From positions 310,001-374,000 of the forward strand of contig NZ_FNZQ01000002.1 of the NCBI RefSeq assembly GCF_900109285.1: DNA of 64,000 nucleotides, written 5' to 3'. Below, piece by piece: positions 5,979-21,992 of the stretch. The translations under genes were made by a program, and so were the position numbers. The number at the start of each line of letters is the position of its first letter. Position 1 is the stretch's first letter. The notes beneath the pieces are model-generated. The model was given only the letters and a program-made list of their open reading frames with translations, had not been told where the DNA came from and made no database searches. This DNA comes from Jannaschia helgolandensis (GTDB lineage: Bacteria > Pseudomonadota > Alphaproteobacteria > Rhodobacterales > Rhodobacteraceae).

Positions 5979-6180
5979 ACCTAGGATGTCTGATTATCCG
6001 CTTAAGTACGAATTGTTTGTTTAGTATATAGTGAAAAACAGTCCGCGCGTTTCATCAAACGCTATGGCGGTATAAGTATTTATATAAGGTGCTAATACAT
6101 AAGCAAAGCTCAAGCGTGACACGCGCCGGATGCAACGTGATCGCAAGGCTTGCCGGTATATGGAAATGGGAATCGTCTGA

Positions 6181-7215
6181 ATGGCCAAACGTTGTCGTGT
6201 CGGAGTCGTCGGATGTGGCTTCTTTTCTCAAAACCATCTCAACTCATGGCATTCCCTACACGCTCAGGGTGTCGACCTTGTGGCCGTTTGCGATTTGTCA
6301 CGGGAGCAGGCCGAAAAAGCCGCGAAGGCCTTTTCAGTTCCCGGCATTCATACCGATATGGCTGCGATGATCGCCGAGGGTGACCTCGACATCGTCGATA
6401 TTGTCACACAGGTGAACTCTCACAGGGCGCTGGTCTCGCAGTCACTTGATGCCGGGATTGCCACCATTGTTCAAAAACCCTTTGGTCGCTCGCTTGCTGA
6501 ATGCGAGGGAATGCTTGCCAAGGCGCAGGCATCGGGACAGTTTCTGGCCGTGCATGAGAACTTTCGCTTTCAGCACCCGCACATGATGATCAGCGACATC
6601 CTGGCATCAGGCAAAATCGGCGATCCCACCTGGGGACGGATCAGTTTTCGAACCGGCTATGACATCTATTCAGGGCAACCCTATCTGAGGGAAGAGGAGC
6701 GGTTCATCCTGACCGACGTGGGCGTGCACGTCCTTGATCTTGCGCGCGTCTTTTTCGGAGAAGTCCACCACCTGTCTGCCGAATTGCAGCGCCGGGATCG
6801 TGACGTAAAGGGAGAAGATACGGCGACGATGATGCTGCGGCACCTGTCCGGCGCGGTCAGCGTGGTAGAGTGCACGTATGCTTCACAGCAGCTACCGGAC
6901 CCCTTCCCCGCCACGCTCATTGAAATCGAAGGCACACGAGGCGCACTCCGCCTCGGTGCCGATATGAGCCTGACGGTCTCGTCCGGCGATCAGTCGACGA
7001 CCATCAATGCCGACGCCGCCGTTCTTAGTTGGGCGGAGCGGCCTTGGCATGTGGTTCAGGACAGCGTGCGCAACACCTGCCAGCACATTTTGAATCGATG
7101 GAAGGAAGGGAAGCCGGCCTCAGTTTCCGCTGTCGACAATATCAAAACCTACGCGCTCTGCGATGCCGCATACGAAGCCGCCGGGAGCGGTAACGCAACG
7201 CGACCAAAGCACTGA
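6181..7215 (+). CDS. Gfo/Idh/MocA family oxidoreductase
   Basis: An NAD(P)-dependent sugar or inositol dehydrogenase-like protein of 344 residues. The N-terminus has a Rossmann motif (VGVVGCGFFSQNHLNSW, residues about 6-22). The family Lys lies in VQKPFGRSL (usually EKP), and the C-terminal substrate-binding half contains LTDVGVHVLDLARVFFG with the conserved Asp/His pair. It reads toward the sugar-catabolic island but is separated from it by a 600-base gap holding a possible transposase scar, so membership in that pathway is only inferred. The substrate cannot be assigned. The start ATG follows directly after GGGAATCGTCTGA. Confidence 0.85.
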   Translation: MAKRCRVGVVGCGFFSQNHLNSWHSLHAQGVDLVAVCDLSREQAEKAAKAFSVPGIHTDMAAMIAEGDLDIVDIVTQVNSHRALVSQSLDAGIATIVQKPFGRSLAECEGMLAKAQASGQFLAVHENFRFQHPHMMISDILASGKIGDPTWGRISFRTGYDIYSGQPYLREEERFILTDVGVHVLDLARVFFGEVHHLSAELQRRDRDVKGEDTATMMLRHLSGAVSVVECTYASQQLPDPFPATLIEIEGTRGALRLGADMSLTVSSGDQSTTINADAAVLSWAERPWHVVQDSVRNTCQHILNRWKEGKPASVSAVDNIKTYALCDAAYEAAGSGNATRPKH

Positions 7216-7827: not shown

Positions 7828-8679
7828 TCAGATCAGCCGGTATTGTGCCGCCTTGTTACGCAAGAACGGCAGGCCCCGTTCCAGTACGACATCGCGACTC
7901 TCGGCAACCGGGCGCCACACGGCGAGGCCATTGGCAATCTCGGGCGGCATATCAATGAAGCTTTCCATGGCAAGACCACCGCTGAACCCTACTGCCGCCA
8001 GTGCGCCATAGACCTCGTCCCACCGCACGTTGCCCGCACCCGGCGTGCCCCGGTCCGACTCCGACAGGTGGATATAGGCCAGATGGTCCCGTCCCTCCAG
8101 AATGCCCATCGCAATGCCACGCTCCTCGATATTCATGTGATAGGTATCGAGATGCAGGAACATGTTCTCCGCGCCGATCCGCTCGATCATCTCGATGCCT
8201 TGGCGGGCCGTGTTGATCAAATGGCTCTCGTAGCGGTTCACCGGCTCGATGCCGAAGCGCATCCCAAGACGCGCGGCATGGGCTGCGGCACGATCCAACG
8301 TGATGGCGACATGGTCCAGTTCCTCCGTTGTGGGCGGCGTGCCGGTGGTCTCGCCGATACCGCCATATGTCACGCCCGACAGCGCTTCGGCCCCGATCGC
8401 ATGGGCCACGTCGAGCGCGCCCGTCAGGAATGCGACGGCGTCGTCAGGCCCGTGCCGTGACGGCCAGACCGCTTCCGGCAGGCCCAACGAACAGACGGCC
8501 GGCAACTCAGCCGCCTCCAGCAGCTCGCGGGAGGCGGTAGGATCGACCGCATCGGGCGATAGCAGCGCGATCTCGATGAAGTCGAAGCCATGGGTCGTCG
8601 CGGCTGCGACCGCTCGTTCCGACCCCGCCTTGTCCCAGGTCATCGTCCACATGCTCGTGTGGACCCCAAATCCTTTCAT
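7828..8679 (-). CDS. Sugar isomerase/epimerase, AP-endonuclease-2-like TIM barrel
   Basis: A 283-residue cytoplasmic TIM-barrel enzyme of the xylose isomerase-like/ketose 3-epimerase group. It has GVHTSMWTMTW at the N-terminus, metal ligands in GIEPVNRYE, HLDTYHMNIEE and YIHLSESDRGTPG, and a final Glu in LAMESF; this is the usual Glu-Asp-His-Glu metal site of tagatose/psicose 3-epimerases. Its start overlaps the stop of the SorC regulator by four bases (ATGA), so the two are translationally coupled. It should isomerise or epimerise the sugar brought in by the divergent ABC transporter before the FGGY kinase acts. The exact sugar is unknown. Confidence 0.87.
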   Translation of the reverse strand: MKGFGVHTSMWTMTWDKAGSERAVAAATTHGFDFIEIALLSPDAVDPTASRELLEAAELPAVCSLGLPEAVWPSRHGPDDAVAFLTGALDVAHAIGAEALSGVTYGGIGETTGTPPTTEELDHVAITLDRAAAHAARLGMRFGIEPVNRYESHLINTARQGIEMIERIGAENMFLHLDTYHMNIEERGIAMGILEGRDHLAYIHLSESDRGTPGAGNVRWDEVYGALAAVGFSGGLAMESFIDMPPEIANGLAVWRPVAESRDVVLERGLPFLRNKAAQYRLI

Positions 8680-9611
8680 GCTTCATCCTCCTTCAGTATG
8701 ATCGCCAGCGCCTCATCCACCACGATCCGGTCCACCAGACCGGCGCGCAGCAGGGCGCGCGTCGCCCGCGCCTTGGACGTGCCCGCCGCCAGCAGCGTCA
8801 CCTCGGCCCGCTTCATGTCATTCAGCCCGATGGCCGGCGTCCGGTCGTTCAGATCGACGGGGGCAAGGGTTCCATCTGCGCGCAGGAACTTGCCCGTCGT
8901 ATCGGCCACCACTTCCGCCGCCTCCAGCGCGTCCAGATCCGCCGCGTCCAGAACGCCCGATGTGGTCAGCAGCGCGTCGCGCCCACCTTCGCCCACCGAC
9001 ACGATCATATGGGTTGCCGACCGCGCCACTTCCAACGCCTCGCGGACCAGACGCTGGCGCATCAGGACCGCGGCATCCTCGGACGTGTCGGCCAGAAATG
9101 GTGCGGGGAGGAACAGGGCCTGCCCCCTCGCGACGGCGGCGATCCGGGCGCAAACGTCGATCGGCCCTTCGGGGCCGGTTCGCACCATCGCCCCCATCAG
9201 GGAAACGACGCGCAGGTCCGGGTTTTGCAGACCGGTCAGCGCGTCGGCCATCGCCGACAACGTGCGCCCCCAACCGACGCCAACGGTCAGCGCCCCGGTC
9301 GCGGCGACACGGCGAAGCCATCCGGCGGCGACCATCCCGACCGCGTGTCGCGCCGCGCCCTCCGCGCCACCGACGTCCGGAGCGACCAGCGCGTCCTTCA
9401 GTCCGAACCGCAGCCGCAACGCCTCGGCCAATGCCAGCGTTCCGCCACTGCGATGGTCCAGCGACACGACGACCTCGCCTGCCGAGCGCGCGTCCGACAA
9501 CAGGCGTAGCACCTTGAACCGCGACAGCCCCAGCCGCTGTCCCACCTCATCCTGACTCAGCCCACCGACGTGATACAGCCAGGCCGCGCGGATCCGAATA
9601 TCGTCGTCCAT
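8676..9611 (-). CDS. SorC/DeoR-family sugar-binding transcriptional regulator
   Basis: A 311-residue regulator. The N-terminal helix-turn-helix reads IRAAWLYHVGGLSQDEVGQRLG, typical of SorC proteins (LsrR, SorC, EryD group). The remainder is the phospho-sugar-binding domain with GVGWGRTL and the C-terminal LLAAGTSKARATRALLRAGLVDRIVVDE. The upstream frame stays open to 9752, but ATG 9611 is preferred because GGAG lies five bases before it. It is the first gene of a leftward pair with the isomerase and faces the kinase operon. The palindrome at 9672-9687 is its likely operator. The inducer is probably the phosphorylated ketose. Confidence 0.9.
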   Translation of the reverse strand: MDDDIRIRAAWLYHVGGLSQDEVGQRLGLSRFKVLRLLSDARSAGEVVVSLDHRSGGTLALAEALRLRFGLKDALVAPDVGGAEGAARHAVGMVAAGWLRRVAATGALTVGVGWGRTLSAMADALTGLQNPDLRVVSLMGAMVRTGPEGPIDVCARIAAVARGQALFLPAPFLADTSEDAAVLMRQRLVREALEVARSATHMIVSVGEGGRDALLTTSGVLDAADLDALEAAEVVADTTGKFLRADGTLAPVDLNDRTPAIGLNDMKRAEVTLLAAGTSKARATRALLRAGLVDRIVVDEALAIILKEDEA

Positions 9612-9655
9612 GTTCACTCCAAACCCGAACTTGACCCAACGTCCACAGCATTTTA

Positions 9656-9687
9656 CACATGTGCTTGCAGATTGCACAATTGTGCAA
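9656..9687. promoter_or_regulatory. Divergent operator region with 16-bp perfect palindrome
   Basis: TTGCACAATTGTGCAA (9672-9687) is a perfect 16-base palindrome. A weaker partial copy, centred on CACATGTG (9656-9663), lies one and a half helical turns away. Both sit in the 106-base gap between the SorC-type regulator and the FGGY kinase, where an operator controlling both arms is expected. I infer that the regulator binds here, with two sites allowing cooperative binding. Confidence 0.65.
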
Positions 9688-9717
9688 ATCAGCGTGTAAC
9701 GGTGGGAGGGGCGCAAC

Positions 9718-11208
9718 ATGACCACGTACGTCCTCGGCATCGATGGTGGCACCGAAAGCCTTCGGGCGCGAGTGTTCGATCTCTCCGGACGATCACTCGG
9801 CGATCATGCCGCGCCCTATGCGACCGATTTTCCCGCCCCCGGCCATGCCGAGCAGGACCCCGAGGCATGGTGGGCCGCCGCCGGGATTGCCACACGGGGT
9901 GCCATCGTGTCTTCGGGTGTGGACCCGGCGGACATCGCGGCGCTGGCTTGCGACACGACAAGCTGCACCGTCGTGGCGCTTGATGTGGCTGGAACCCCTG
10001 TCCGCCCTTGTCTTTTGTGGATGGACGTCCGCGGCCATCGGCAGGCAGCAGACGTTCTGGCCACCGGCGATCCCGCCCTGCGTATAAACGGCGGCGGTGC
10101 CGGGCCGGTCAGTCCGGAATGGATGCTGCCCAAGGCGCTCTGGATCAAACAGCACCAGCCCGATGTCTGGGCGCGTGCCGCGAAGGTGGGCGAATATCAA
10201 GACTTTCTGACACTGCGTATGACGGGGCGATGGGTCGCCTCGCTCAACAACATGACGATGCGATGGCATTATCAGACGCGCCATGGCGGCTGGCCCGACG
10301 CCCTGCTTGCGCAGATCGACCTGTCAGATCTGCGCGACCGTTGGCCCGCTGAATTTGCCGCTCCGGGCGAAGTGATCGGCCCCCTCACCCGCGAGGCCGC
10401 CGTCCATCTGGGCCTGCCCCAGACCTGTCAGGTCGTGCAAGGCGGGGCCGATGCTTTCATCGGCATGATCGGCCTGGGCGTGACACAGCCTGGCGATCTG
10501 GCGCTGATCACCGGGTCGTCGCACCTGCAACTGGGCGTCGCGATGCGAGAAACCCACGCGGGAGGCGTCTGGGGCACCTATGCGGATTGCGTTTATCCCA
10601 GGCGCCACATCATCGAGGGCGGCCAGACCTCTACCGGTTCAGTCATCGCCTGGTACAAGCGCAATTTCGCTCCCGATACCGCCTACGAGGATCTGAACGC
10701 CGCCGCCGCCGCCCTGCCGCCCGGGGCCGAGGGCTTGCTGGCAGTGGACCATTTCCAAGGCAACCGGACACCTCATACCGACGCGCTGGCCCGCGGGGCC
10801 GTCACCGGCTTGACGCTCAAGCACACCTCCGCACATGTCTATCGCGCGCTGATCGAAGGCATCTGCTTTGGCACCCGCTCCATCATCAGTGCCTTCGGCG
10901 GCGCATTCGAGGCGCGGCGCATCGTGGTTGCAGGCGGGGCCGTTAACGCGCCCTTCTGGCTGCAAACCCACGCCGATACGCTGGGCTTGCCGCTGGAGGT
11001 CACCGAACAGCCCGAGGCACCTTGTCTGGGTGCCGCTATCCTCGCCGCCGTCGGCGCCGGTGCTTATCCCGACATCGACGCGGGTTGCGCCGCCATGGTC
11101 CGCACGTCGCGCGTAATCGTGCCAGACATGGACGCACATGCTGCCTACGCCCCCATCTTTGACCGCTACCAAGCCGCCTTTGGCGCATTGAAGAAACTTC
11201 GTGAATGA
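9718..11208 (+). CDS. FGGY-family carbohydrate kinase
   Basis: A 496-residue ATP-dependent kinase of a ketose or related polyol. The first phosphate motif is VLGIDGGTESLRARVFD. The catalytic Asp lies in QGGADAFIG, and the ADP-binding region has ITGSSH and VVAGGAVNAPFW. It resembles ribulokinase-like FGGY proteins more than glycerol kinase. A strong GGGAGGGG site precedes ATG 9718. Its stop overlaps the E1 alpha start (ATGA), making it the first gene of a long operon. LsrK and RhaK, the kinases of the related AI-2 and rhamnose systems, belong to the same family, but the substrate here is not identifiable by eye. Confidence 0.92.
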   Translation: MTTYVLGIDGGTESLRARVFDLSGRSLGDHAAPYATDFPAPGHAEQDPEAWWAAAGIATRGAIVSSGVDPADIAALACDTTSCTVVALDVAGTPVRPCLLWMDVRGHRQAADVLATGDPALRINGGGAGPVSPEWMLPKALWIKQHQPDVWARAAKVGEYQDFLTLRMTGRWVASLNNMTMRWHYQTRHGGWPDALLAQIDLSDLRDRWPAEFAAPGEVIGPLTREAAVHLGLPQTCQVVQGGADAFIGMIGLGVTQPGDLALITGSSHLQLGVAMRETHAGGVWGTYADCVYPRRHIIEGGQTSTGSVIAWYKRNFAPDTAYEDLNAAAAALPPGAEGLLAVDHFQGNRTPHTDALARGAVTGLTLKHTSAHVYRALIEGICFGTRSIISAFGGAFEARRIVVAGGAVNAPFWLQTHADTLGLPLEVTEQPEAPCLGAAILAAVGAGAYPDIDAGCAAMVRTSRVIVPDMDAHAAYAPIFDRYQAAFGALKKLRE

Positions 11209-12209
11209 CCTTTGCAAACGACGCTCCCCTCGCCCGCTATCGTACGATGCGCCGGATCCGAACCTTCGAGGAGCGGGTGGGGGAATTGTTCCTCAAAGGC
11301 GAATCCGCAGGATCCATGCTGCATCTGTCCATCGGAGAGGAGGCCGTCGTCGGCCTGACTGACCACATGGCCGAAGGCGATACGTTCACCACCCACCACC
11401 GCGGCCACGGCATATTTCTGGCGCGCGGGGCCGATCCGATGCGGATGCTGGCCGAAATCGCTGGACGCGAGGCCGGGTATTGTCGTGGCAAGGGTGGCTC
11501 CATGCATATCGCAGATCGAGGTCTGGGTCATCTGGGCGCGAACGCCATCGTCGGTGGCGGCATCCCGCATGTGGTGGGAGCCGGGATCACAGCGCGCAAC
11601 ACCGGCACGCGGGTCGTATCAGTGGCTTTCTTCGGCGACGGTGGCATGGGTCAGGGTATTCTGTACGAGGCGATGAACATGGCCGCGCTCTGGAAGCTTC
11701 CGGTCGTGTTCTGCTGCATCAACAACCAGTACGGCATGGGAACGCGGGTCGACCGCTCTGCCGGACGACAGGATTTCCCCGCACGGGCCGAGGCGTTCGG
11801 ACTGCGGGCCGCCCGCGCCGACGGATCGGACGTCGAGGCGGTGCATGACGCGGCGCAGGCCATCGTCGAGGGGGCCCGCGACGGACAGCCCGGCTTCATG
11901 GAGATCGACGCCTACCGCTTCCACGGTCATGCACGCATGGACAAATCACCCTATCGCACCCCGGAGGAGGAGGAGGAGGGCCGCGCCCGCGACCCGCTTG
12001 CCACTGCCCGCACGTCTCTGGCCGACGACACCTTGCTCGACACCATCGACGCCGAGGCGGAGGCTGAGATGGATACCGCCATGAAGACCGCCATCGCCGC
12101 CACCCCTCCGGCATCGGACACGATGTTCCAGGACGTCTACGACCCGTCCACCCCCGCGCCGCGTCCGCAGCGCGCCCGCCTCGCCGATGTTCTGGAGGAA
12201 CGAGCATGA
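11205..12209 (+). CDS. Thiamine-dependent 2-oxo acid/acetoin dehydrogenase E1, alpha subunit
   Basis: A 334-residue alpha subunit of a heterotetrameric E1 of the PDH/acetoin dehydrogenase type. It contains the early RTFEERV helix, HRGHGIFLARG, GKGGSMHI and the thiamine diphosphate motif from FFGDGGMGQG to INNQYGMG. It overlaps both neighbours by four bases. In known systems E1 forms the C2-thiamine adduct and reductively acylates lipoamide. No branched-chain or pyruvate enzymes are nearby. The combination with an AcoC-like E2 points to an acetoin-dehydrogenase-type reaction on a hydroxyketone, here probably sugar-derived. Confidence 0.92.
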   Translation: MTFANDAPLARYRTMRRIRTFEERVGELFLKGESAGSMLHLSIGEEAVVGLTDHMAEGDTFTTHHRGHGIFLARGADPMRMLAEIAGREAGYCRGKGGSMHIADRGLGHLGANAIVGGGIPHVVGAGITARNTGTRVVSVAFFGDGGMGQGILYEAMNMAALWKLPVVFCCINNQYGMGTRVDRSAGRQDFPARAEAFGLRAARADGSDVEAVHDAAQAIVEGARDGQPGFMEIDAYRFHGHARMDKSPYRTPEEEEEGRARDPLATARTSLADDTLLDTIDAEAEAEMDTAMKTAIAATPPASDTMFQDVYDPSTPAPRPQRARLADVLEERA

Positions 12210-13198
12210 CCCAGACCACATATCGCGACGCCCTGCTTCAGGCCCTGCTGGATGCGATGGATGCCGACGAGACAGTTATTCTGATGGGCGAGGAGGTCGG
12301 GCTTTACGGCGGGGCTTACGGTGTGACCAAGGGTATGCTCGACCGGTTCGGGGCCAACCGCGTGATCGACACGCCCATTTCCGAGCCTGCAATCGTCGGG
12401 GCTGCCATTGGCGCAGCGATGACCGGGCTGCGCCCCGTGGCCGAGATCATGTACGTGGATTTCGCGGGTATGGTCATGGACCAGCTCGCCAATCAGGCGG
12501 CCAAGTCGCGCTATATGTTCGGCGGTCAGATCGGCGTACCGATGGTTCTGCGCACCCAGGGCGGCACCGGCCGGTCGGCGGCGGCCCAGCACTCCCAGTC
12601 GCTGGAGGCCTGGATGATGCACACCCCCGGATTGCGCCTGTGCATGCCCGGCACGGTGTCGGATGCCTATCACCTTTTGCGCGACGCCATGCGACAGCCG
12701 GACCCGGTGGTCTTCATCGAGCACAAGGGGCTGTATACGATGAAGGGCGAGATCGGGGATGTGCCTGATGCGCCATGGGGCCAACCTGCGATCCGCCGCC
12801 GGGGCGGCGACCTGACCATCGCCAGCTATTCGCGCATGTTGCAGGAAACGCTGACTGCCGCCGAGGCCCTTGCCCCCGAAATCGAGACCGAAGTCGTCGA
12901 TCTTCGCTGCCTCAACCCGCTGGACGACGGCCCCTTGATGGACAGCGTGCGCCGTACCGGACGCTGCCTGATCGTGACCGAAGCCGTGACCACATGCTCC
13001 GTCGCATCCGAGATCGCGGCGCGTGTCAGCGAACAGTGTTTCGACTGGTTGGAAGAGCCGCCCCTGCGTTTGGGCGGCGAGGATATTCCCATCCCCGTCT
13101 CGCCCGCCCTGGAACGCGCCTCGATCCCCGACGCGCGTCTGATCGAAGACGTCGCGCGCTGGCTTGTCGCGCGGGAGGCACCGTCATGGGCCGCGTAA
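12206..13198 (+). CDS. Thiamine-dependent dehydrogenase E1, beta subunit
   Basis: A 330-residue beta subunit pairing with the preceding alpha subunit. It has MGEEVGLYGGAYGVTKG, the ISEPAIVGAAIG segment whose Glu activates thiamine, MYVDFAGMVMDQL and the conserved C-terminal transketolase domain (VVDLRCLNPLDDGP). Length and motifs match AcoB/PdhB proteins, and all expected blocks are present. It overlaps the alpha gene by four bases, and its 3' end overlaps the E2 gene by 13 bases in another frame. The strong coupling indicates stoichiometric synthesis of the complex. Confidence 0.92.
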   Translation: MTQTTYRDALLQALLDAMDADETVILMGEEVGLYGGAYGVTKGMLDRFGANRVIDTPISEPAIVGAAIGAAMTGLRPVAEIMYVDFAGMVMDQLANQAAKSRYMFGGQIGVPMVLRTQGGTGRSAAAQHSQSLEAWMMHTPGLRLCMPGTVSDAYHLLRDAMRQPDPVVFIEHKGLYTMKGEIGDVPDAPWGQPAIRRRGGDLTIASYSRMLQETLTAAEALAPEIETEVVDLRCLNPLDDGPLMDSVRRTGRCLIVTEAVTTCSVASEIAARVSEQCFDWLEEPPLRLGGEDIPIPVSPALERASIPDARLIEDVARWLVAREAPSWAA

Positions 13199-14370
13199 TC
13201 CTCACCCTGCCCCGTCTGGGCGAGACGATGGAGGAGGCGAAGGTCACCGAATGGCTCGTCGTCATCGGCGCAGTCTATGCACGCGGGGACGTCCTGCTGG
13301 AGGTGGAAACCGACAAGACCGTCGTCGAAGTGCCCGCGCTGGCCGCAGGCACTCTGCTGAAACAGCTTGTGGCCCCCGGCGACATGGTTGAACTCGACGC
13401 ACCCATCGCCGAGGTCGAGCAGGAAGGTGATGTTTCGGTCGCCGGTCCCGAGCCTACGGCACCGATTCCGACCGCCGATATGCCGGCCCCGACGAAACCT
13501 GCACCGACGCCGCCGTCCGCACCACGAGACGCCAGCGGCCGCATCGCCGCTTCTCCCGCCGCGCGGGCCGAGGCACGCAGACGCGGGGTGTCGCTTTCAG
13601 GTATGTCCGGCAGCGGGCGGCGCGGGCGCATTACCGCCGATGACGTCGGGGGCGATGATGACGGAACCGTTGTCCTGATCCACGGCCTGTTCGACAATTC
13701 GACCGGCTGGCGCGGCTTGCCGCAGCGCCTGGCGCGACGCGGCCTCGCCTGTATCACGCTTGACCTGCCTGGCCACGGTACCGACACCACGTCTGCCGAC
13801 ACATTTGATCAGGCAGCGGCCCTGCTGGCCGACCGCCTCCCCATTGGTCCTCTGCACCTCGTCGGCCATTCGCTCGGGGCCGCCCTTGCCGCGCGCCTTG
13901 CCACCCGGATCGGTGCGCGTGCGCGGTCCCTGACACTTTTCGCACCTGCCGGTCTAGGGGCTGCGATCTCGGCAGACTTTCTGACAGGTATGGCACAAGC
14001 CAGTTCCGCAGAGGCATTGAAGACAGTGCTGGCCCTTCTGGACGGCGGACCGATCTCCGACGCAGCCATTGCACAGCAACTGCCCCAGCATCTCGCGGGC
14101 CTCGCCGTACGGTCCCGGCTGGCCGAAGCGGTCGCGCGGGATGGCAGGCAACAGATCGACGCCACGGCCGACATTGCAGCCGCGCCCTGCCCCGTCACGG
14201 TCGTCTTCGGAACCGCCGATCGGATCCTTGACTGGCGCGATGTAGCCCATCTGCCGGCCGAGACGCGCATCCACCTCATCCCGAACGCGGGGCACCTGCC
14301 CCATCTTGTTCGGCCCGATCTTGCCGCAGCGCTCATCGCGCCCCGGCATGACCCTGCGGAAACTGCTTGA
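13186..14370 (+). CDS. AcoC-like E2: lipoyl domain, E3-binding domain, alpha/beta hydrolase
   Basis: A 394-residue multidomain protein. Residues 1-80 form a lipoyl domain with the lipoylation Lys at about 44 (VETDKTVVE). A Pro/Ala linker leads to a peripheral subunit-binding domain (about 115-155, [16 protein letters not shown], then GRITADDV). Residues about 160-390 are an alpha/beta hydrolase fold with Ser229 (GHSLGAA), Asp345 and His370. Acetoin dehydrogenase E2 (AcoC) has this design instead of the CAT core of PDH. ATG 13186 lies inside the E1 beta gene. No E3 (dihydrolipoyl dehydrogenase) is encoded nearby, so it must be borrowed from another complex. The acyl group moved may be acetyl or glycolyl. 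Confidence 0.88.
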
Positions 14371-14407
14371 TCGAGCTGCTCCGCTGTTTACCGTGCGTAG
14401 GCATAAC

Positions 14408-14423
14408 CCCGGTTGAGACCGGG
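14408..14423 (+). other. Intercistronic hairpin
   Basis: CCCGGT and ACCGGG pair around the TGAG loop, in the 74-base gap between the E2 gene and the substrate-binding protein gene. There is no T-run, so it is more likely an RNA-stability or processing element than a terminator. Confidence 0.4.
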
Positions 14424-14444
14424 ATAACTTCTGGGAGGAAGACA

Positions 14445-15428
14445 ATGAAACACCTGATCACCACCGCCGCTGCGTTGATGGCGACAACGATGCTGGCCAC
14501 ACCCGTTCTGGCGGACGCCCATAGCAAGCAGATGGCCACCGTCGTCAAGATCGATGGCATCGCCTGGTTCAACCGCATGCGTCTGGGCGTGGATGAGTAC
14601 GCCGCCGAGACCGGCAATAACGCCTATCTGGTAGGTCCGGCCCAGGCCGACCCGCAGCAGCAGGTCGCGCTGATCGAGGACATGATCGCGCAGGGTGTCG
14701 ATGCCCTTCTGGTCGTGCCTATGTCGCCAGAAGCGATCGAGCCTGTGCTGGGCCGTGCGATGGACGCTGGCATCACCGTCATCACCCACGAGGCGGCGAG
14801 CCAGGAAAACACCCTGTATGACATCGAGGCCTTCAAGAACGAGGACTTCGGCGCCAACCTGATGGATCGCATGGCCGCCTGCATGGAGGAGGAGGGCGAA
14901 TATGCCGTATTTGTCGGTTCGCTGGGCAGCCAGACCCACAATCAGTGGGTCGACGGCGCGATCGCCCGACAGCAGGAAGCCTATCCAAACATGACTCTCG
15001 TCGGCGATAAGAACGAGACCGCCGACGATCAGCAGCAGGCCTATGCCAAGGCCCAGGAAGTGCTGCGGGCCTTCCCGAACATCAAGGGCTTGCAAGGATC
15101 TGCCTCGACCGACGTGGCCGGTATCGGCCTCGCCATCGAGGAGCGCGGGATGGAGGACGCGACCTGCGTCTTCGGCACGTCACTGCCGTCCATCGCGGGT
15201 CAGTACATGGAGACGGGAGCCGTCGACGGCATCGGCTTCTGGGATCCCAAGATTGCGGGCATCGCGATGAACAAGGTCGCGATGATGGTGATGAACGGCG
15301 AAGAGATCACCGACGGCATGGACCTCGGGCTTGAAGGCTACGAGGCCGTGACGCTGGAAGGCAAGGTCATAACCGGCAAGGCCTTCGTCGACGTCGATGC
15401 GTCCAATATGGGCGAATACGACTTCTGA
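14445..15428 (+). CDS. Sugar ABC transporter, periplasmic substrate-binding protein
   Basis: A 327-residue secreted binding protein. The first 23 residues are a signal peptide ([17 protein letters not shown], cleavage at VLADA). The mature part is a type I periplasmic sugar-binding fold with [21 protein letters not shown], which resembles LsrB/RhaS proteins. It captures the sugar for the downstream ATPase and permeases. GGGAGG precedes ATG 14445; the frame upstream of it is not conserved. Hairpins flank the gene, as is common where the binding protein must exceed the membrane components. The ligand is unknown. Confidence 0.92.
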
Positions 15429-15449
15429 TCGTCCCGATCCTCTCCTTGG

Positions 15450-15475
15450 CGCGCCCCCCAAATCGTGGGGGCGCG
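15450..15475 (+). other. GC-rich hairpin after the binding-protein gene
   Basis: CGCGCCCCC (15450-15458) pairs with GGGGGCGCG (15467-15475) around an 8-base loop. It lies between the stop of the substrate-binding protein and the start of the ATPase gene, with no T tract. Such elements often protect the upstream mRNA and attenuate downstream expression. Confidence 0.6.
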
Positions 15476-15494
15476 TCCACAACAGGGACGTACC

Positions 15495-16997
15495 ATGGCC
15501 AAGAACCCAGAGACGATGCCGCTCGTGACGCTGGAGTCGGTTACGAAACGCTACGCCGCGATCACCGCGCTGGACGGCGTCGACCTGAACATCCACGCCG
15601 GAGAGGCCGTGTGCCTTGCCGGTGAGAACGGATCGGGCAAATCGACGCTCATCAAGGTGCTGGTGGGGGTGGAACAACCCTCGGCGGGTCGTGTCCTGTT
15701 CGACGGCGTGCCCCAGACCCGGCTGACCCCGACGACCGCGACCTCCGCCGGGGTCCAGGTCATTTTTCAGGATTTCAGCCTGTTCCCGAACCTGTCCGTC
15801 GCCGAGAACATCTCGATGACCGCCGAACGGGCAACCGGCACGCTTATGGTGCGTCGAGCCCGCGCCCGCGCCCGCGCCGCTGAAGTGCTGGCGCGCGTCG
15901 GCGTGGACCTAGACCTCGACGCCCGCGTCGAACGCCTGCCCGTCGCGCACAAGCAACTGGTCGCGATCTGCCGTGCGCTTGCCGCTGATGCGCGCCTCAT
16001 CATCATGGACGAGCCGACGACCGCCCTGACCGAACGCGAGGTCGCGCGCCTGCTGGACCTTATACGCAGGCTCAAGGCCGATGGCGTGGCCGTCCTTTTC
16101 GTGTCCCACAAGCTGGCCGAAGTGCTGGAGGTTTGCGAGACTGTCGTCGTCTTGCGCAACGGGGCCAAGGTCGCCGAAGGACCCGCTGCCGACTTCGACT
16201 CCGCCTCGCTGACGCGGGCGATGACCGGGCGAGACGTGGCTTCCGGCCCGCCGACCCCTCTGGATGCCGCTGCACCACCATTGCTCCGCGTCGATGGGCT
16301 GTGCCGCGCCGGGGCCTTCGAAGACGTTTCGTTATCTTTGCGCGCAGGCGAGGTTCTGGGGGTGGCGGGCCTGCTGGGTTCGGGGCGCACGACGCTGGCC
16401 AAGGCGCTGTTCGGACTGGCCCGACCCGACCGGGGCCAAGTGACATTGAACGGCGCGGCCATTCCGCTGGGCGATCCCATCGCGGCGGCGGCGGCAGGCA
16501 TCGGCTACGTCCCTGAAGACCGCCTGACTGAAGGCCTGTTTCTGGAACAGAGCATCGCCCACAACATCGCCGTCGGTCGTTTCGACGCCCATTCGCACAG
16601 CGGTGTGCTCAACCTGAAAAACCTTTGGGAGGAGGCCACAGTCTGGCTGAAACGCCTGTCGGTCAAGGCCCCCGACCCGACCGCCCCGGTCCGCTCCTTG
16701 TCTGGCGGAAATCAACAGCGCGTGGTGCTGGCCCGCTGGATGGCCCGCAAGCCGCGCGTCCTGATCCTGAACGGTCCCAGCGTCGGCGTCGACGTCGGGT
16801 CCAAGGCGGAAATCCACGGCATCATGGCCGATCTGGCCGCCAAAGGTCTGGGCGTCATCGTCATCTCCGACGACCTGCCCGAGTTGCTGGCCACCTGTCA
16901 CCGCATTCTAGTGATGAAGGACGGCATCATCACCGAAGAAGTTTCGGGCGGTGCAGGCGTCACCGAGTCCGAACTGAGCCACAGGCTCGCGTCATGA
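15495..16997 (+). CDS. Sugar ABC transporter, dual ATPase protein
   Basis: A 500-residue cytoplasmic ATPase with two fused nucleotide-binding domains, the RbsA/LsrA/RhaT architecture. Domain 1 has Walker A GENGSGKST and Walker B LIIMDEPTTAL. Its signature segment reads LPVAHKQLVAICR, as usual in this family. Domain 2 has the degenerate Walker A GLLGSGRTT and the signature LSGGNQQRVVLARW. ATG 15495 (AGGGA upstream) begins a good N-terminus before VTLESVTKRY. Its stop overlaps the first permease start. It powers import of the pathway sugar. Confidence 0.94.
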   Translation: MAKNPETMPLVTLESVTKRYAAITALDGVDLNIHAGEAVCLAGENGSGKSTLIKVLVGVEQPSAGRVLFDGVPQTRLTPTTATSAGVQVIFQDFSLFPNLSVAENISMTAERATGTLMVRRARARARAAEVLARVGVDLDLDARVERLPVAHKQLVAICRALAADARLIIMDEPTTALTEREVARLLDLIRRLKADGVAVLFVSHKLAEVLEVCETVVVLRNGAKVAEGPAADFDSASLTRAMTGRDVASGPPTPLDAAAPPLLRVDGLCRAGAFEDVSLSLRAGEVLGVAGLLGSGRTTLAKALFGLARPDRGQVTLNGAAIPLGDPIAAAAAGIGYVPEDRLTEGLFLEQSIAHNIAVGRFDAHSHSGVLNLKNLWEEATVWLKRLSVKAPDPTAPVRSLSGGNQQRVVLARWMARKPRVLILNGPSVGVDVGSKAEIHGIMADLAAKGLGVIVISDDLPELLATCHRILVMKDGIITEEVSGGAGVTESELSHRLAS

Positions 16998-18037
16998 CGG
17001 TACAGACAGACTTGACCACAGGCGCAACACAACACAGGCGAAACAGGATGAAATCCATCGACTGGGCCCGCAACGAAACCCTCGTCTTCGTCGTTATCGT
17101 CGCGTTCTGTGCGCTGGCGGCCATCAGCGACCCGAACTTCCTGTCGATCCCGACACTGACCGACCTGATGCGCAATTCGATCGTGCTTGGCATCTTTGCC
17201 GTAGGCGCGATGGTTGTGCTGGTATCAGGCGGCATCGACGTCAGCTTCACCGCCGTCGCCGCCTTCGCGATGTATGCCACGACGGTCCTGTTGCGCGACC
17301 TTGCCCCCGACCTGCCCTGGCCGCTGGCGTTTGCGATTGCCACGATGATCGGTGCCGTTCTGGGGTCGATCAACGGCGTGCTTATCGCATTCTGCGGTTT
17401 GCCGACGCTGATCGTTACACTGGGCACGCTGTCGGTGTTCCGTGGGTCCCTGCTGACTTTTGTCGGCACGCTGCAAATCTCGAACCTTCCGCCGGGGATG
17501 CGTGATTTCAGTCGCTGGATGATGGTTCGCGGTACCAATTCGGACGGCTCGTTCTATTCGCTGCCATGGGCCTTCGCGGCGCTGGTCATCATCGTGGCTG
17601 CGACTTGGTTCATCCTGAACCGCACCATGTTGGGCCGTGCGATCTATGCCATTGGGGGCGCGCCCGAAAGCGCGCGACGGATCGGCATAAACGTGCGCCG
17701 GACGCAGTTTTTCATCTATGTCTTCGTCGGTGCGTTGGCAGGCCTTGCAGGCATCATCCACGCATCGATGGCCCGCATCTCGAATCCGTTCGACCTGGTC
17801 GGTCTGGAACTTAGCGTGATCGCCGCCGTCGTGCTGGGTGGCGCGCGTCTGACCGGGGGTGTCGGCACGCTGACCGGTACGTTGCTGGGCGTTGCGCTGA
17901 TCGTGCTTGTGCGCAATTCGCTGATCGTGATCGGCATTCCCTCGACCTGGCAATCGGTCGCGATCGGCGTCCTGATCATTGTCGGCACCGGCCTGCCCGC
18001 GTGGCAGGCGAAACGTGCGGAGGCGCGGGAAACATGA
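16994..18037 (+). CDS. Sugar ABC transporter permease 1
   Basis: A 347-residue inner-membrane permease of the ribose/AI-2/rhamnose type (BPD_transp_2) with about eight to ten hydrophobic segments. Family blocks include GGIDVSFTAVAAFA, CGLPTLIVTLGTLSVFRG and AVVLGGARLTGGVGTLTGTLLG. ATG 16994 overlaps the ATPase stop by four bases. An internal ATG at 17048 begins closer to the first hydrophobic segment and cannot be excluded. Two different permeases in one operon match LsrC/LsrD and RhaP/RhaQ rather than the homodimeric RbsC. Confidence 0.92.
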   Translation: MTVQTDLTTGATQHRRNRMKSIDWARNETLVFVVIVAFCALAAISDPNFLSIPTLTDLMRNSIVLGIFAVGAMVVLVSGGIDVSFTAVAAFAMYATTVLLRDLAPDLPWPLAFAIATMIGAVLGSINGVLIAFCGLPTLIVTLGTLSVFRGSLLTFVGTLQISNLPPGMRDFSRWMMVRGTNSDGSFYSLPWAFAALVIIVAATWFILNRTMLGRAIYAIGGAPESARRIGINVRRTQFFIYVFVGALAGLAGIIHASMARISNPFDLVGLELSVIAAVVLGGARLTGGVGTLTGTLLGVALIVLVRNSLIVIGIPSTWQSVAIGVLIIVGTGLPAWQAKRAEARET

Positions 18038-19008
18038 TGGGCCGCATCCTGCAGTCGACCGAAGGTCGGTTGGCGATCATAACTCTGGTCGTTTTCATCA
18101 CCATGTCGATCCTGGCACCCGAGAGGTTCCTGTCGCCCGCCAACCTGACATCCATGGCCTTCCAATTCCCCGAATTCGCGATCCTGGCGCTGGCCGTCGC
18201 GGTCGCCATGCTGACCGGGGGGATCGACTTGTCCGTCGTCGGCGCCGCCAACCTCTCCGCCGTGGTCGCGGCCTTGTTCATGAGCCAGTTCGCAGGCACG
18301 GTAGCGGATGGCGGCACAGGCACCGGCATCCTGCTGGCGGCCATAGCCTTGTCGCTGGCCGTGGGTCTGGTGACGGGTCTGTTCAACGGTATCCTCGTGG
18401 CGACCTTCGGGCTGCCGCCGATCCTTGCGACTCTGGGCACAGGCCTGATTTACACAGGACTTGCCATCGCCATGACCGGGGGCAGCGCGGTGATGGGCCT
18501 GCCGCCCGCCGTGGCCTGGGTCGGCAACGGCACGCTGCTTGATATCCCGGTGCCGCTGGTCATTTTCTCCGCTCTTGCCATCGCCCTGGGCTGGGTTCTG
18601 AAACGCACTGCCTTCGGGCTCAAGACCCGCATGTTCGGTGCAAACCCCCTTGCCGCGCGCTACGCCGCGATGGACACGGGCCGCGTCCTGCTCAAGGTCT
18701 ATGCCCTGTGTGGCGTGCTGTCGGCCATCGCGGGACTAATCGTCATGTCGCGCGCCAATTCGGCCAAGGCCGATTACGGCAGCAGCTATCTGCTGCTGGC
18801 CGTCCTCATCGCGGTGCTAGGCGGGGTGAATCCTTATGGCGGATACGGTCGGATTGTCGGCGTTGTCCTCGCCGTTCTGTCGATGCAATTCCTGTCTTCG
18901 GGCCTGAACCTGCTGCAAGTCACCAACTTCGCGCGCGAAATGATCTGGGGCGTTTTGCTGATCGGCGTGATGCTTATCAACCTTCTCACCTTCCGGAGGA
19001 AATCATGA
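18034..19008 (+). CDS. Sugar ABC transporter permease 2
   Basis: A 324-residue partner permease of the same family with many membrane segments. Motifs are TGGIDLSVVGAANLSA, FGLPPILATLGTGLIYTG and LLAVLIAVLGGVNPYGGYG. It starts at an ATG overlapping the previous stop, with GCGGAGG upstream. Together with permease 1 it forms the heterodimeric channel. Its last codons overlap the DhaK start. Confidence 0.92.
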   Translation: MMGRILQSTEGRLAIITLVVFITMSILAPERFLSPANLTSMAFQFPEFAILALAVAVAMLTGGIDLSVVGAANLSAVVAALFMSQFAGTVADGGTGTGILLAAIALSLAVGLVTGLFNGILVATFGLPPILATLGTGLIYTGLAIAMTGGSAVMGLPPAVAWVGNGTLLDIPVPLVIFSALAIALGWVLKRTAFGLKTRMFGANPLAARYAAMDTGRVLLKVYALCGVLSAIAGLIVMSRANSAKADYGSSYLLLAVLIAVLGGVNPYGGYGRIVGVVLAVLSMQFLSSGLNLLQVTNFAREMIWGVLLIGVMLINLLTFRRKS

Positions 19009-20006
19009 AAAAGATCCTCAACGATCCCGAGGCCTACGTCGACGAAACTCTCGCCGGCCTTTGCGCTGCGCACCCCGAGACCTATCGTCTTGTGGGCGAA
19101 GAGGGACGCGCCGTCGCCCGCACCACGCCAGGCCGGGACGGCAAGGTCGGCATCGTGTCGGGCGGCGGATCGGGTCACCTGCCGGTCTTCACCGGCTATG
19201 TCGGCGCGGGTTTGCTGGATGCCTGCGCCATCGGCGACGTTTTCGCCTCGCCCACGTCCGAACAGATGGCCGACGCCATCCGTGTCGCCGACCGGGGCGC
19301 GGGGGTGCTGCGGCTGTATGGAAACTACGGCGGCGATGTGATGAATTTCGACATGGCCGGCGATCTGGTCGAGATAGAGGATATCGAGACCACCACCGTC
19401 CTCTTGGCCGACGACGTCGCCTCCGCCCCGCCCGAGGAGGCCGAGAAGCGGCGCGGCGTGGCAGGCATGGTCTATGCATTCAAGATCGCTGGGGCCGCCG
19501 CCGAGGCCGGTCTGGATCTGGCCGGGGTCACACGCGTCGCACAGAAGACCGCCGATGCCTGCCGGTCGGTCGGGGCGGCGCTGTCCTCCTGCACCGTGCC
19601 GCAGGCAGGTAAACCCACCTTCGAGATCGGCGAGGACGAGATGGAGATGGGCATGGGTATCCACGGCGAGCCGGGCGTCTGGCGCGACACGCTGCGCCCC
19701 GCCGATGCCATTGCCGAAGAGATGTTGGACCGCCTGCTGGCCGATATCGAGATCGGTGGTGGCGACCGCGTGTCGGTCCTCGTGAACTCGCTGGGCGCGA
19801 CACCGCATGAGGAGCTGTATATCCTCTACCGCAATGTCCACGCCCGGCTGAAAGCGGCGGGTGCCGAGGTCGTAATGCCGCTGGTCGGACGCTATGCGAC
19901 GTCGATGGAGATGACGGGCGTGTCTTTCACCCTCTGCAAGCTGGACGCGGAATTGGAGGGGTATCTCAAGGCACCCTGCGACTGTGCCTTCTGGATCGTC
20001 AAATGA
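19005..20006 (+). CDS. dhaK: Dihydroxyacetone kinase, DhaK substrate-binding subunit
   Basis: A 333-residue DhaK-type subunit. It binds dihydroxyacetone, or a related short ketose such as erythrulose, through a hemiaminal to His220 in GIHGEPG. The N-terminal half has the conserved VGIVSGGGSGHLPVFTGYVG and GNYGGDVMNFDMA segments. GGAGG lies upstream of ATG 19005. It overlaps the last permease gene and DhaL by four bases, so it belongs to the sugar operon. In this context it probably captures the three-carbon ketone released when the imported sugar is cleaved; an erythrulose-type substrate is the main alternative. Confidence 0.92.
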   Translation: MKKILNDPEAYVDETLAGLCAAHPETYRLVGEEGRAVARTTPGRDGKVGIVSGGGSGHLPVFTGYVGAGLLDACAIGDVFASPTSEQMADAIRVADRGAGVLRLYGNYGGDVMNFDMAGDLVEIEDIETTTVLLADDVASAPPEEAEKRRGVAGMVYAFKIAGAAAEAGLDLAGVTRVAQKTADACRSVGAALSSCTVPQAGKPTFEIGEDEMEMGMGIHGEPGVWRDTLRPADAIAEEMLDRLLADIEIGGGDRVSVLVNSLGATPHEELYILYRNVHARLKAAGAEVVMPLVGRYATSMEMTGVSFTLCKLDAELEGYLKAPCDCAFWIVK

Positions 20007-20599
20007 TTACCGTCGCCGACCTTCGTGCCGCGTCCCTGCGCCTGCGGGATGCGATGGAGGCGGAGGCCGATGCGCTCAACGCCGCAGACGGCGCGTTGGG
20101 TGACGGCGACCTGGGGGTGACGATGCGGCGTGGGTCGCGGGCCGTGGCGGAAAAGGCAGAGGATTTGCCGGAGGATTTCGGCATGGCCCTGATGGCCTGC
20201 GCGCAGGCGTTCACCAAGGTGTCGGCGTCGTCCTATGGCACATTACTGGCGACCGGACTGATGGCGGCGGCGAAAGAGGCCAAGGGGCGCGAGGGCATCG
20301 ACCCTGACGAGCTTCCCGCGCTGCTGGACGCGGCGGTGACCAAGATGATGGCGCGTGGCAAAGCGGAATTACGCGGCAAGACGGTGCTGGATTCGCTGGA
20401 TGCAATGGCGCGGGCGCTGACACGCACGGACGACCCCGCCGCGACGGCGGTGCAGGCCGCCGAGGACGCGCAGGTCGCCTTTCGGAGCAAACCCGCCACT
20501 GTCGGTCGGGCACGCATCTTCGGCGAGAAATCAGTAGGCATGGACGATCCGGGCATGCTCGCCATGACGAAGATCGTGAAAGCGCTGACCGGACGTTAG
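20003..20599 (+). CDS. dhaL: Dihydroxyacetone kinase, DhaL nucleotide-binding subunit
   Basis: A 198-residue all-helical DhaL-type subunit that holds the nucleotide and phosphorylates the substrate on DhaK. The Mg-binding Asp cluster is in LNAADGALGDGDLGVTMRRG, followed by the FTKVSASSYGTLLATGLMAA loop and KTVLDSLDAMARA. No DhaM (PTS donor) gene is adjacent, so it may use ATP directly as DhaKL-type kinases do, or a DhaM encoded elsewhere. It is the last gene of the operon and is convergent with an aldo/keto reductase. Confidence 0.9.
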   Translation: MITVADLRAASLRLRDAMEAEADALNAADGALGDGDLGVTMRRGSRAVAEKAEDLPEDFGMALMACAQAFTKVSASSYGTLLATGLMAAAKEAKGREGIDPDELPALLDAAVTKMMARGKAELRGKTVLDSLDAMARALTRTDDPAATAVQAAEDAQVAFRSKPATVGRARIFGEKSVGMDDPGMLAMTKIVKALTGR

Positions 20600-20626: not shown

Positions 20627-21694
20627 CTATGGCTTGTAACCCTCTAGCCCGTCTACCTTTTGCCCTTTGTGAAGCGCCCAGTCCGCCTCAGAGAAACGCG
20701 GCTTGGCGAACTGGTGTTGATGCCAGTGCGGATAAATCAGCGGCGGGCGCGACACTGCATCCAGACGCTGGATTTCCTCGGGTGTCAGCGTCAGATCAAC
20801 CGCGCCGAGCGTCTCGGAAAACTGCGCCTCGGTCCGCCCGCCCACGACCAGAGTCGCCACCGCAGGTCGCTGCAACAACCAGGCCAACGCCACCTGAGCG
20901 ACGGAACGGTCTGCTGCCACTTCGCGCAGCGCATCCACGATATTCCACAACCGGTCCCAGTCTCGGATCGGCGGCTCCGACCAGCCCTGCGCCTGACGCG
21001 AATCCTCGGCGAACCCTTCGCGGGTATGTTTGCCGGTCAGCAATCCGGCAACCAGCGGCGACCAGATCATCACACCAAGGCCCTGATCGACCGAAAGTGG
21101 CAGCAGCTCGTACTCCGCCTCCCGCGCCTCCAGAGTGTAGTGAATCTCCTGCGCTGTGAACCGTTCAAGCCCGCCTGCGCCGCTGGCCATGAGCCCCTTC
21201 ATCACCTGCCAGGCAGACCAGTTGGAACAGCCGAAATACCGGACCTTGCCGTGCTTCACGAGGATATCCAACGCGGCCATGACCTCCTCCATCGGGGTCT
21301 GACCGTCCCATTCGTGCATCAGGTAGATATCGATGTGATCGCGCCCCAGCCGCTTCAGCGAGCGTTCGCATTCGCGGATCAGATGCCAACGGCTAAGCCC
21401 TTCATCGTTGGGCCCATCTCCGATCCGCATCCGCGCTTTGGAACAGATCAATACATCCGGATCGCGATCCTTCATCACAGCGCCGACAATTTCTTCTGAG
21501 AGACCGATGGAATACATATTGGCCGTATCGATCAGGTTAACGCCCCGGTCGAGACAGGTGTCGACCAGACGCGAAGCATCGGCCACGTCTTGCGCGCCAG
21601 TCATGCCGAAATCGCCACGTCCACCGAAGGTGAATGTGCCCATGGTGAGGGCCGAAACCTTTAAGCCGCTCCGTCCAAGATACCTGTACTCCAT
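20627..21694 (-). CDS. Aldo/keto reductase
   Basis: A 355-residue NADPH-dependent oxidoreductase with the AKR barrel. It has YRYLGRSGLKVSALTMGTFTFGG at the N-terminus, the catalytic Asp-Tyr in NLIDTANMYSIGLSEE, a Lys in VLICSKARMR and a His in DIYLMHEWDG. The C-terminal VVGGRTEAQFSETLGA binds the cofactor phosphate. ATG 21694 is preceded by AGGAGG, so I excluded the upstream extension to 21745. It converges on dhaL and has its own promoter, so a role in the sugar pathway (reduction of an aldehyde such as glycolaldehyde) is possible but unproven. Confidence 0.9.
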   Translation of the reverse strand: MEYRYLGRSGLKVSALTMGTFTFGGRGDFGMTGAQDVADASRLVDTCLDRGVNLIDTANMYSIGLSEEIVGAVMKDRDPDVLICSKARMRIGDGPNDEGLSRWHLIRECERSLKRLGRDHIDIYLMHEWDGQTPMEEVMAALDILVKHGKVRYFGCSNWSAWQVMKGLMASGAGGLERFTAQEIHYTLEAREAEYELLPLSVDQGLGVMIWSPLVAGLLTGKHTREGFAEDSRQAQGWSEPPIRDWDRLWNIVDALREVAADRSVAQVALAWLLQRPAVATLVVGGRTEAQFSETLGAVDLTLTPEEIQRLDAVSRPPLIYPHWHQHQFAKPRFSEADWALHKGQKVDGLEGYKP

Positions 21695-21992
21695 CCTGCA
21701 ATCCTCCTGATTTTCACGCTGCCGCGCCAGAACGCCGCTGTCCACAGATGCGTCACTGACAAAATGTTAGTCGAGGCCACGAAGGTGCAGATGACAACAA
21801 ACAACGAGCGCATTTCGAAAGACGTCACTATACCAATCGACGGTCGGACATCTGCGGTGCCTTCATAGAGTGGTTCGGTACGAATGTTAAGTTTCAGGCC
21901 CACTGATTCAACTACAATCGCTTACACTGGACTGATGCACCAAGGAAGTATGGCCCGCCATAAGCTTCACCATACCAAGAACGGGCAAGTTC

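Follow-up and report, generated by a model that had tools for sequence, protein, structure and literature searches.

Phosphorylated sugars are known to be cleaved by aldolases, by transketolases, and by phosphoketolases. The D-apiose cluster of Escherichia coli SE15 is described as having a non-oxidative branch made of an FGGY kinase and the AptAB transketolase (PMC13001218). The locus considered here lies in a stretch of 64,000 nucleotides ("the window") from Jannaschia helgolandensis (contig NZ_FNZQ01000002.1, positions 310,001 to 374,000), whose genome of 3.56 Mb is assembled in 14 contigs. Here, an FGGY kinase shares a regulon with a complex resembling acetoin dehydrogenase (AcoABC). Kinase and modified complex together suggest a route, so far undescribed, by which phosphorylated sugars would be cut into a coenzyme A (CoA) ester and a smaller sugar phosphate. 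No description of this cluster was found in the open-licence papers searched, as judged from listings and abstracts, which agrees with the novelty claimed by a first-pass annotation of the same DNA.

All of the genes named in that annotation are indeed present where it placed them (Table 1). An epimerase gene and a sorC gene are transcribed divergently from an operon that runs from the kinase through E1-alpha, E1-beta, E2, and an ABC importer to DhaK and DhaL. The kinase, E1-alpha, E1-beta, and E2 genes overlap end to start by a few bases, as do those of DhaK and DhaL. The importer consists of a single binding protein, a double ATPase, and a pair of permeases. The E3 component would come from elsewhere in the genome, where two E3 genes score above cut-off.

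The annotation had further claimed that the complex is tied to a sugar kinase, and this appears to hold well beyond the window. When genome contigs were searched with the kinase, 317 encoding stretches were found, and the 80 best were retained. The comparison set consists of 28 related loci besides the window, and excludes loci that copy the window or one another (L005, L082, L109, L152, L153). Kinase, E1-alpha, and E1-beta occur together in all 28. SorC is found in 27 of these, E2 in 26, and the epimerase in 15; a first type of binding protein stands in 14, a second type in five, and a short-chain dehydrogenase/reductase (SDR) with an AhpD-like protein in four. Of kinase, E1, E2, and DhaK, the first three largely travel together, but DhaK, like DhaL, is present in only 18. 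Counts below 28 are, of course, minima, because several loci end at contig ends. Of the two loci that have no E2, L018 stops at a contig edge, and L020 has after E1-beta a short E2-like frame of another type.

These loci were gathered by similarity, and the co-occurrence was therefore re-counted by search route. Thirteen loci had been fetched through E1-beta (L093 to L101 and L129) or through E2 (L084 to L086, which are 3 of the 40 rows listed in the E2 search), and every one of the 13 has the kinase. Approached from the other side, the best 80 of the 317 stretches include 19 loci whose kinase is at least 59% identical to that of the window, and 15 of these also have E1-alpha. The other four are L011 and L023 (contig edge), L017 (a different context), and L007. 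In L007, the kinase, epimerase, importer, and DhaKL are retained, while E1, E2, and SorC have been lost; the closest E1-beta in that genome is only 46% identical.

The kinase-E1 system is rare. With E1-beta as query and a threshold of E 1e-110, relatives turned up in 10 of 292 genomes searched within the order and in 2 of 385 searched within the class, the organism's own genome being included in both counts. E1-alpha found nothing better than 3e-76 outside its own genome among 249 genomes of the phylum, and the kinase found no match when E. coli genomes were searched at the DNA level.

Plasmid searches with E2 and the kinase located a second type of regulon in Nitratireductor, Tritonibacter, and Sinorhizobium. 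This has SorC, an importer, E1-alpha, E1-beta, E2, an AhpD-like protein, the kinase (56% identical to the window kinase in Nitratireductor), and one or two SDRs. Its binding protein resembles solved ribose-type and other sugar-binding chains weakly (88 bits at best). L096 and L097 combine the second-type kinase, E1, and E2 with the epimerase, the first-type importer, and DhaK. L020, from a member of the Trueperaceae (Deinococcota), has the second-type binding protein (63%), the kinase, E1, and a gene like that for glycerol-1-phosphate dehydrogenase. Kinase, E1, and E2 thus move as a block, with kinase and E1 as its constant core. Next to a second-type core with yet another importer, L101 has a gene (6153-7025) resembling 2-hydroxy-3-oxopropionate reductase and L-threonate dehydrogenase, under the cut-off of both models.

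Other parts of the regulon are found in other company. In Chelatococcus and Ruegeria, members of the epimerase family are accompanied by a class II aldolase and a different sort of FGGY kinase. Binding proteins 52-53% identical to that of the window stand in Labrenzia and Ponticoccus with DhaK, DhaL, and a SorC-DhaK fusion. From these contexts, the regulon looks assembled from three parts: a short-ketose importer and DhaKL, an epimerase part, and the kinase-E1-E2 core. Two loci (L105:4407-12008 and L106:4454-12011) have the importer, an epimerase 65-68% identical, a different FGGY kinase, and a class II aldolase in a row, as in a related ketose pathway where an aldolase replaces E1 and E2. The loci with fusion regulators (L103:3244-13609 and L104:3147-12621) are probably short-ketose regulons.

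The E1 proteins themselves form a separate group. A maximum-likelihood tree was built from 72 E1-alphas: 29 linked to the kinase, 18 of pyruvate dehydrogenase (PDH) type, 6 of acetoin type, 9 of which 8 are linked to DXR-II, and 10 more. All of the kinase-linked sequences, from the window and the 28 loci, fall in one clade of 29 with support of 100/100, apart from the pyruvate and acetoin rows alike. The deeper order of the tree is unsure because it has long branches and a midpoint root. The nearest row to the window E1-alpha comes from the same genus (G154), followed by other Rhodobacterales.

Residues were compared between this clade and the 18 PDH, 6 acetoin-type, and 8 DXR-II-linked rows, the other 11 rows of the tree being set aside. 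The clade differs from all three groups at 19 positions of E1-alpha and 13 of E1-beta. Found in the clade without exception, and missing in the three groups, are His64, His109, Arg181, and Arg244 of the alpha chain (29/29) and Tyr83, Gln118, and Arg123 of the beta chain (28/28). At the site where PDH has YRxHG, the clade carries the acyloin-type HRGHG. The corresponding motifs of the window protein read HHRGHG and GHARMD, the latter replacing GHFEGD of AcoA and GHSMSD of PDH.

Notable among these positions is Arg244, where PDH has Met (18/18), the acetoin type Glu (5 of 6, with one Ser), and the DXR-II-linked group Lys (8/8). This arginine lies two residues past a conserved loop histidine, which the alignment matches to H271-alpha of the Geobacillus stearothermophilus enzyme, a residue of the outer active-site loop (PMC2663715). 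The same source places the substrate-contacting H128-beta among F82-beta and F85-beta. By spacing and a one-residue offset, in a mapping of our own, Tyr83 of the beta chain would match F82-beta; the acetoin and DXR-II-linked groups have Phe at the position of Tyr83. The simplest reading of these replacements, judged from sequence, would be that the substrate is polar and phosphorylated. A basic loop residue was considered as a general marker of a neighboring kinase and rejected: Arg accompanies a kinase in 28 of 28 loci, but Lys has one in view in just 2 of 8, and therefore Lys is tied to DXR-II, not to kinases.

These observations suggest a pathway, to which we give an even chance of being right: the kinase would form the phosphate of a ketose, which the complex would split between C2 and C3 to give an acyl-CoA, NADH, and an aldose phosphate, with glycolyl-CoA the favored acyl product. 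Each reaction, the phosphorylation of the substrate, and the identity of the acyl group are what we infer from the genes. The importer would bring in the ketose, which would be epimerized at C3 where needed, and the FGGY kinase would phosphorylate the end far from the carbonyl. The E1 alpha-beta pair with thiamine diphosphate would then attack the C2 carbonyl and break the C2-C3 bond, releasing an aldose phosphate (glyceraldehyde 3-phosphate, were the substrate a pentulose 5-phosphate). The two carbons that stay on thiamine would be oxidized onto the lipoyl group of E2 and leave as acyl-CoA, with NADH produced by the shared E3. DhaKL would have an accessory role, phosphorylating a triose or short ketose that uses the same importer. 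From the annotation's interpretation, this keeps oxidative cleavage of a ketose phosphate to an acyl-CoA as an inferred reaction, but does not favor apulose as the substrate or dihydroxyacetone as a product for DhaKL.

An ordinary ketose, with a hydroxyl group on C1, would give glycolyl-CoA. This outcome may be favored over acetyl-CoA by Tyr83, which stands for Phe at the putative F82-beta site beside the catalytic H128-beta. The epimerase family is found elsewhere next to an FGGY kinase together with a class II aldolase, which also breaks carbon-carbon bonds, and this counts for a cleaved ketose phosphate. So, by analogy, does the Lys group, which in 8 of 8 loci adjoins DXR-II, an enzyme whose substrates are sugar phosphates.

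Several facts weigh against this proposal. The residue argument comes from one clade and an alignment. Just 2 of the 8 Lys loci have a kinase in view, in a search that covered the FGGY family by model and the PfkB family by similarity. L007 keeps kinase, epimerase, importer, and DhaKL and has no complex, so the regulon does not always require one. In L008, L014, and L129, genes resembling class II aldolases lie close to the operon, and cleavage by an aldolase may therefore go on in parallel. The kinase subfamily is also seen with no E1 in view (L017, L087, L088), and 13 of the 28 loci, some of them truncated, lack the epimerase. Nothing in the operon encodes an enzyme that would use glycolyl-CoA, and the proposal does not account for DhaKL. 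In one of the loci with an aldolase (L129:1754-12063), a second FGGY-like kinase and the aldolase directly adjoin DhaKL, SorC, the kinase, and E1/E2.

The same machinery might act, with a lesser but appreciable likelihood, on a 1-deoxyketose such as 1-deoxy-D-xylulose or its C3 epimer, whose phosphate, like 1-deoxy-D-xylulose 5-phosphate (DXP), would be cleaved to acetyl-CoA and glyceraldehyde 3-phosphate. This would be the exact analogue of acetoin cleavage, as acetoin-type E1s cleave methyl ketols, and the acetyl-CoA so made needs no further acyl-CoA enzyme. Further, a 1-deoxyketose can enter neither the pentose phosphate pathway nor a dihydroxyacetone phosphate aldolase, a point of chemistry that also speaks for it, and other operons do place DXR-II beside an acetoin-like E1/E2. 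DXR-II is, however, absent from the window operon, and the site is more polar in the window clade than in the three compared groups, all of which form or are presumed to form acetyl. A quite unlikely substrate is apulose, or apulose 4-phosphate, which the annotation had put forward; the complex would then replace apulose 4-phosphate transketolase and release glycolyl-CoA and dihydroxyacetone or its phosphate. The E. coli D-apiose cluster does share the plan of the second-type regulon, with its SorC, CUT2 importer, FGGY kinase, and two SDRs; subunits of a transketolase take the place of E1/E2, and DhaKL could use the dihydroxyacetone. Yet the window kinase and the FGGY kinase of that cluster, which we take to be apulose kinase, share 22-23% identity and differ in signature (DTTSCT in the window, SNQRET in the other), so that apulose was rejected on kinase orthology. 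The SDRs of the two kinds of cluster are 32-40% identical, and the apiose-cluster binding protein resembles the second-type protein at family level, with 25% identity or less. Enzymes of the 3-epimerase family require a hydrogen at C3, and apulose has none for the epimerase to act on. DhaK is not seen in 10 of the 28 loci, 3 of which are cut short (L009, L012, L018); in the stretches searched for the seven uncut loci (L020, L084, L085, L086, L098, L099, L101), kinase and complex occur with no DhaKL, nor is DhaKL found in the four loci that have SDRs and the AhpD-like protein. As an obligatory next step, which the annotation had made it, DhaKL is therefore unlikely, all the more as L007 keeps it without the complex.

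The complex is very unlikely to be an acetoin or pyruvate dehydrogenase of the ordinary kind that happens to sit in a sugar operon. Its domain make-up is that of AcoABC, with lipoyl and alpha/beta-hydrolase domains in E2, and its best E1 models are those of PDH. In the tree, however, the clade of 29 rows stands apart from both the 6 acetoin-type rows, AcoA included, and the pyruvate rows; the loops typical of both are replaced, and the kinase is the constant partner of E1. E2 falls under the cut-off of the AcoC model NF011457 (267.2 of 307 bits, for a query lacking the first four residues), and E1-alpha under those of the PDH models TIGR03182 (296 of 394) and TIGR03181 (191 of 411), with neither YRxHG nor GHSMSD. 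The window operon also has none of the acoX, sigma-54 activator, and butanediol dehydrogenase genes of the Paracoccus acetoin cluster. An autoinducer-2-like (Lsr) pathway is scarcely credible. A SorC regulator, an FGGY kinase, and a LsrB/RhaS-type importer would fit one, but the Lsr models score under cut-off (LsrK 166 of 528, LsrB 111 of 384, LsrR 104 of 486, LsrA 375 of 586 bits), and LsrF and LsrG are not among the matches listed for the ten operon proteins scanned. Of the positions that we take to bind autoinducer-2 in LsrB (K35, D116, D166, Q167), the alignment shows K35 kept, D116 changed to E, and D166/Q167 changed to T/H. On the models and these positions, this reading was rejected.

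The operons of the Lys group deserve a closer look. DXR-II adjoins the Lys-group E1 in 8 of 8 loci (L092:1967-12633, L114, L115, L117, L118:7796-12440, L119, L120, L122). Against 3upl, the structure of Brucella DXR-II, the L118 protein scores 685 bits and that of Priestia 368 bits. All eight proteins keep K191, K193, T229, H250, and R320, residues that one study takes up in discussing how the substrate is bound, the dimer interface, or functional divergence (PMC3847144). The operon on a Priestia plasmid also has an FGGY kinase of the window subfamily (42% identical), E2, E3, a transporter, and SorC regulators; that of L118 has a PfkB kinase, SorC, and an ABC importer. The stretches covered for the other six loci showed neither an FGGY nor a PfkB kinase. 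In these operons, methylerythritol phosphate would be converted to DXP, which would be split to acetyl-CoA and glyceraldehyde 3-phosphate, and the loci are thus candidate operons for methylerythritol catabolism. The parallel lends weight to ketose phosphates as substrates of acetoin-type complexes in general, and leaves a 1-deoxyketose as a possible substrate in the window.

Both sets of operons may, tentatively, belong to a class of complexes not yet described, CoA-linked dehydrogenases of ketose phosphates that derive from acetoin-type E1/E2 and have at least two branches. One, bound to the FGGY kinase, would turn an unusual ketose into glycolyl- or acetyl-CoA. The other, bound to DXR-II, would run the first isoprenoid steps backwards, from methylerythritol phosphate through DXP. 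A cluster on plasmid p1 of Shinella sp. H4-D48 (L151:9369-17909 and L090:32-16925) has E1-alpha, E1-beta, a transaldolase-family protein, an AcoC-like E2, and E3, along with phosphoglycolate phosphatase and triose-phosphate isomerase; an aldolase, lipoyl synthase, glycerol-1-phosphate dehydrogenase, and kinases lie near it. As a third case it was rejected, for its loop has no basic residue at the R244 position.

Table 1. Genes and candidate operator of the regulon, in window coordinates
Feature	Position	Strand	Basis
Ketose 3-epimerase (D-tagatose/D-allulose 3-epimerase family, xylose-isomerase-like TIM barrel)	7828..8679	-	PF01261 108 bits
SorC-family regulator	8676..9611	-	PF04198 (Sugar-bind domain) 178 bits
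Perfect palindrome TTGCACAATTGTGCAA, candidate SorC operator	9672..9687		divergent promoter, 16 bases
FGGY carbohydrate kinase	9718..11208	+	FGGY_N 115 bits, FGGY_C 129 bits
E1-alpha, acetoin-dehydrogenase-like complex (Arg244 loop clade)	11205..12209	+	PF00676 211 bits
E1-beta	12206..13198	+	PF02779, PF02780
E2 (lipoyl, E3-binding, alpha/beta-hydrolase domains)	13186..14370	+	Biotin_lipoyl, E3_binding, Abhydrolase_6 (query from 13198)
Periplasmic sugar-binding protein	14445..15428	+	PF13407 210 bits
ABC importer ATPase, two ABC domains	15495..16997	+	ABC_tran in 2 stretches, 189 bits
ABC importer permease 1	16994..18037	+	open frame; homologue in related loci; start codon picked by eye
ABC importer permease 2	18037..19008	+	open frame; homologue in related loci; start codon picked by eye
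DhaK, dihydroxyacetone-kinase-family subunit	19005..20006	+	PF02733 398 bits
DhaL, nucleotide-binding kinase subunit	20003..20599	+	PF02734 115 bits

The gene first annotated as an isomerase is present, and can now be placed more narrowly as a full-length relative of solved ketose 3-epimerases; 7dz2 is its top match in the PDB (395 bits), and the motifs GIEPVNRYE, HLDTYHMN, YIHLSE, and AMESF are conserved. It misses the NCBIfam D-psicose 3-epimerase equivalog cut-off (138 of 300 bits). The kinase scores 271 bits with the XylB model and 267 bits with that for ribulokinase, both under cut-off, and its TTSCT motif resembles TACT of the ribulokinase 3qdk. E1-beta keeps the DTPISE motif and His129 in AQHSQ, and passes the broad subfamily model NF006667 (334 bits, cut-off 321); E2 has the motifs ETDK, GHSLG, and GHLP. 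The binding protein is closest to 5bra among PDB chains (272 bits), an entry listed under a generic name that points to no ligand, and its top model, RhaS (117 bits), is like LsrB far under cut-off. DhaK and DhaL match Pfam Dak1 and Dak2, DhaK being the sole Dak1 match in the whole genome, and fall under the equivalog cut-offs (TIGR02363 378.5 of 406.25; TIGR02365 89 of 138.3).

The palindrome TTGCACAATTGTGCAA occurs once in the genome even when two mismatches are allowed. This makes the locus look like one small regulon that should encode most of its pathway. A 12-base core, GCACAATTGTGC, is kept in 6 of 30 scanned loci (L002 to L006 and L093), or in five distinct close relatives, as L005 and L093 are one contig. 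In more distant scanned loci the core is matched more weakly or not at all; L007, which lost sorC, has no match to it. An aldo/keto reductase gene adjoins the operon (window 20627-21745, minus strand), as it does in several close relatives, and a gene for a Gfo/Idh/MocA-type oxidoreductase lies upstream (window 6181-7215, plus strand). No copy of TTGCACAATTGTGCAA with two or fewer mismatches lies near either.

If the proposed cleavage is correct, lipoyl-dependent oxidative splitting to an acyl-CoA and NADH would be an added type of cleavage in central sugar metabolism. It would explain E1 genes that are currently annotated as pyruvate dehydrogenase, and would offer a tool for producing glycolyl-CoA. 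The DXR-II operons, in turn, would mean that some DXR-II enzymes serve catabolism rather than isoprenoid synthesis.

Set beside the described systems, the window has the E1-alpha/E1-beta type of AcoABC, its HRGHG motif, and its E2 of lipoyl and alpha/beta-hydrolase domains; an AhpD-like partner (carboxymuconolactone decarboxylase family) is common to the second-type regulon and the Paracoccus acetoin cluster. It differs from AcoABC in its separate E1 clade, the Arg244 loop, the extra polar residues, and an FGGY kinase in every counted locus, and from the AcoABC context in having no acoX, acoR, or butanediol dehydrogenase. With the D-apiose pathway it shares SorC, a CUT2 importer, an FGGY kinase, and a two-subunit thiamine-dependent enzyme, to which the second-type regulon adds two SDRs. 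There, however, the thiamine enzyme is a transketolase, and here it belongs to a dehydrogenase complex with a lipoyl E2; AptA and AptB are not in the window operon, whose sole thiamine-enzyme genes are E1-alpha and E1-beta. The epimerase and DhaKL further set the first-type regulon apart. The Lsr system has the regulator, kinase, and importer families in common with the window, and differs at the level of the LsrK, LsrB, LsrR, and LsrA models. The operons with DXR-II (DRL) from Alphaproteobacteria and the Priestia plasmid are also similar: their E1/E2 are acetoin-like, a basic residue occupies the corresponding loop position, and in Priestia there is an FGGY kinase of the same subfamily. Unlike the window, they have another E1 group, Lys rather than Arg, DXR-II itself, and, in Priestia, an E2 of the catalytic acyltransferase type.

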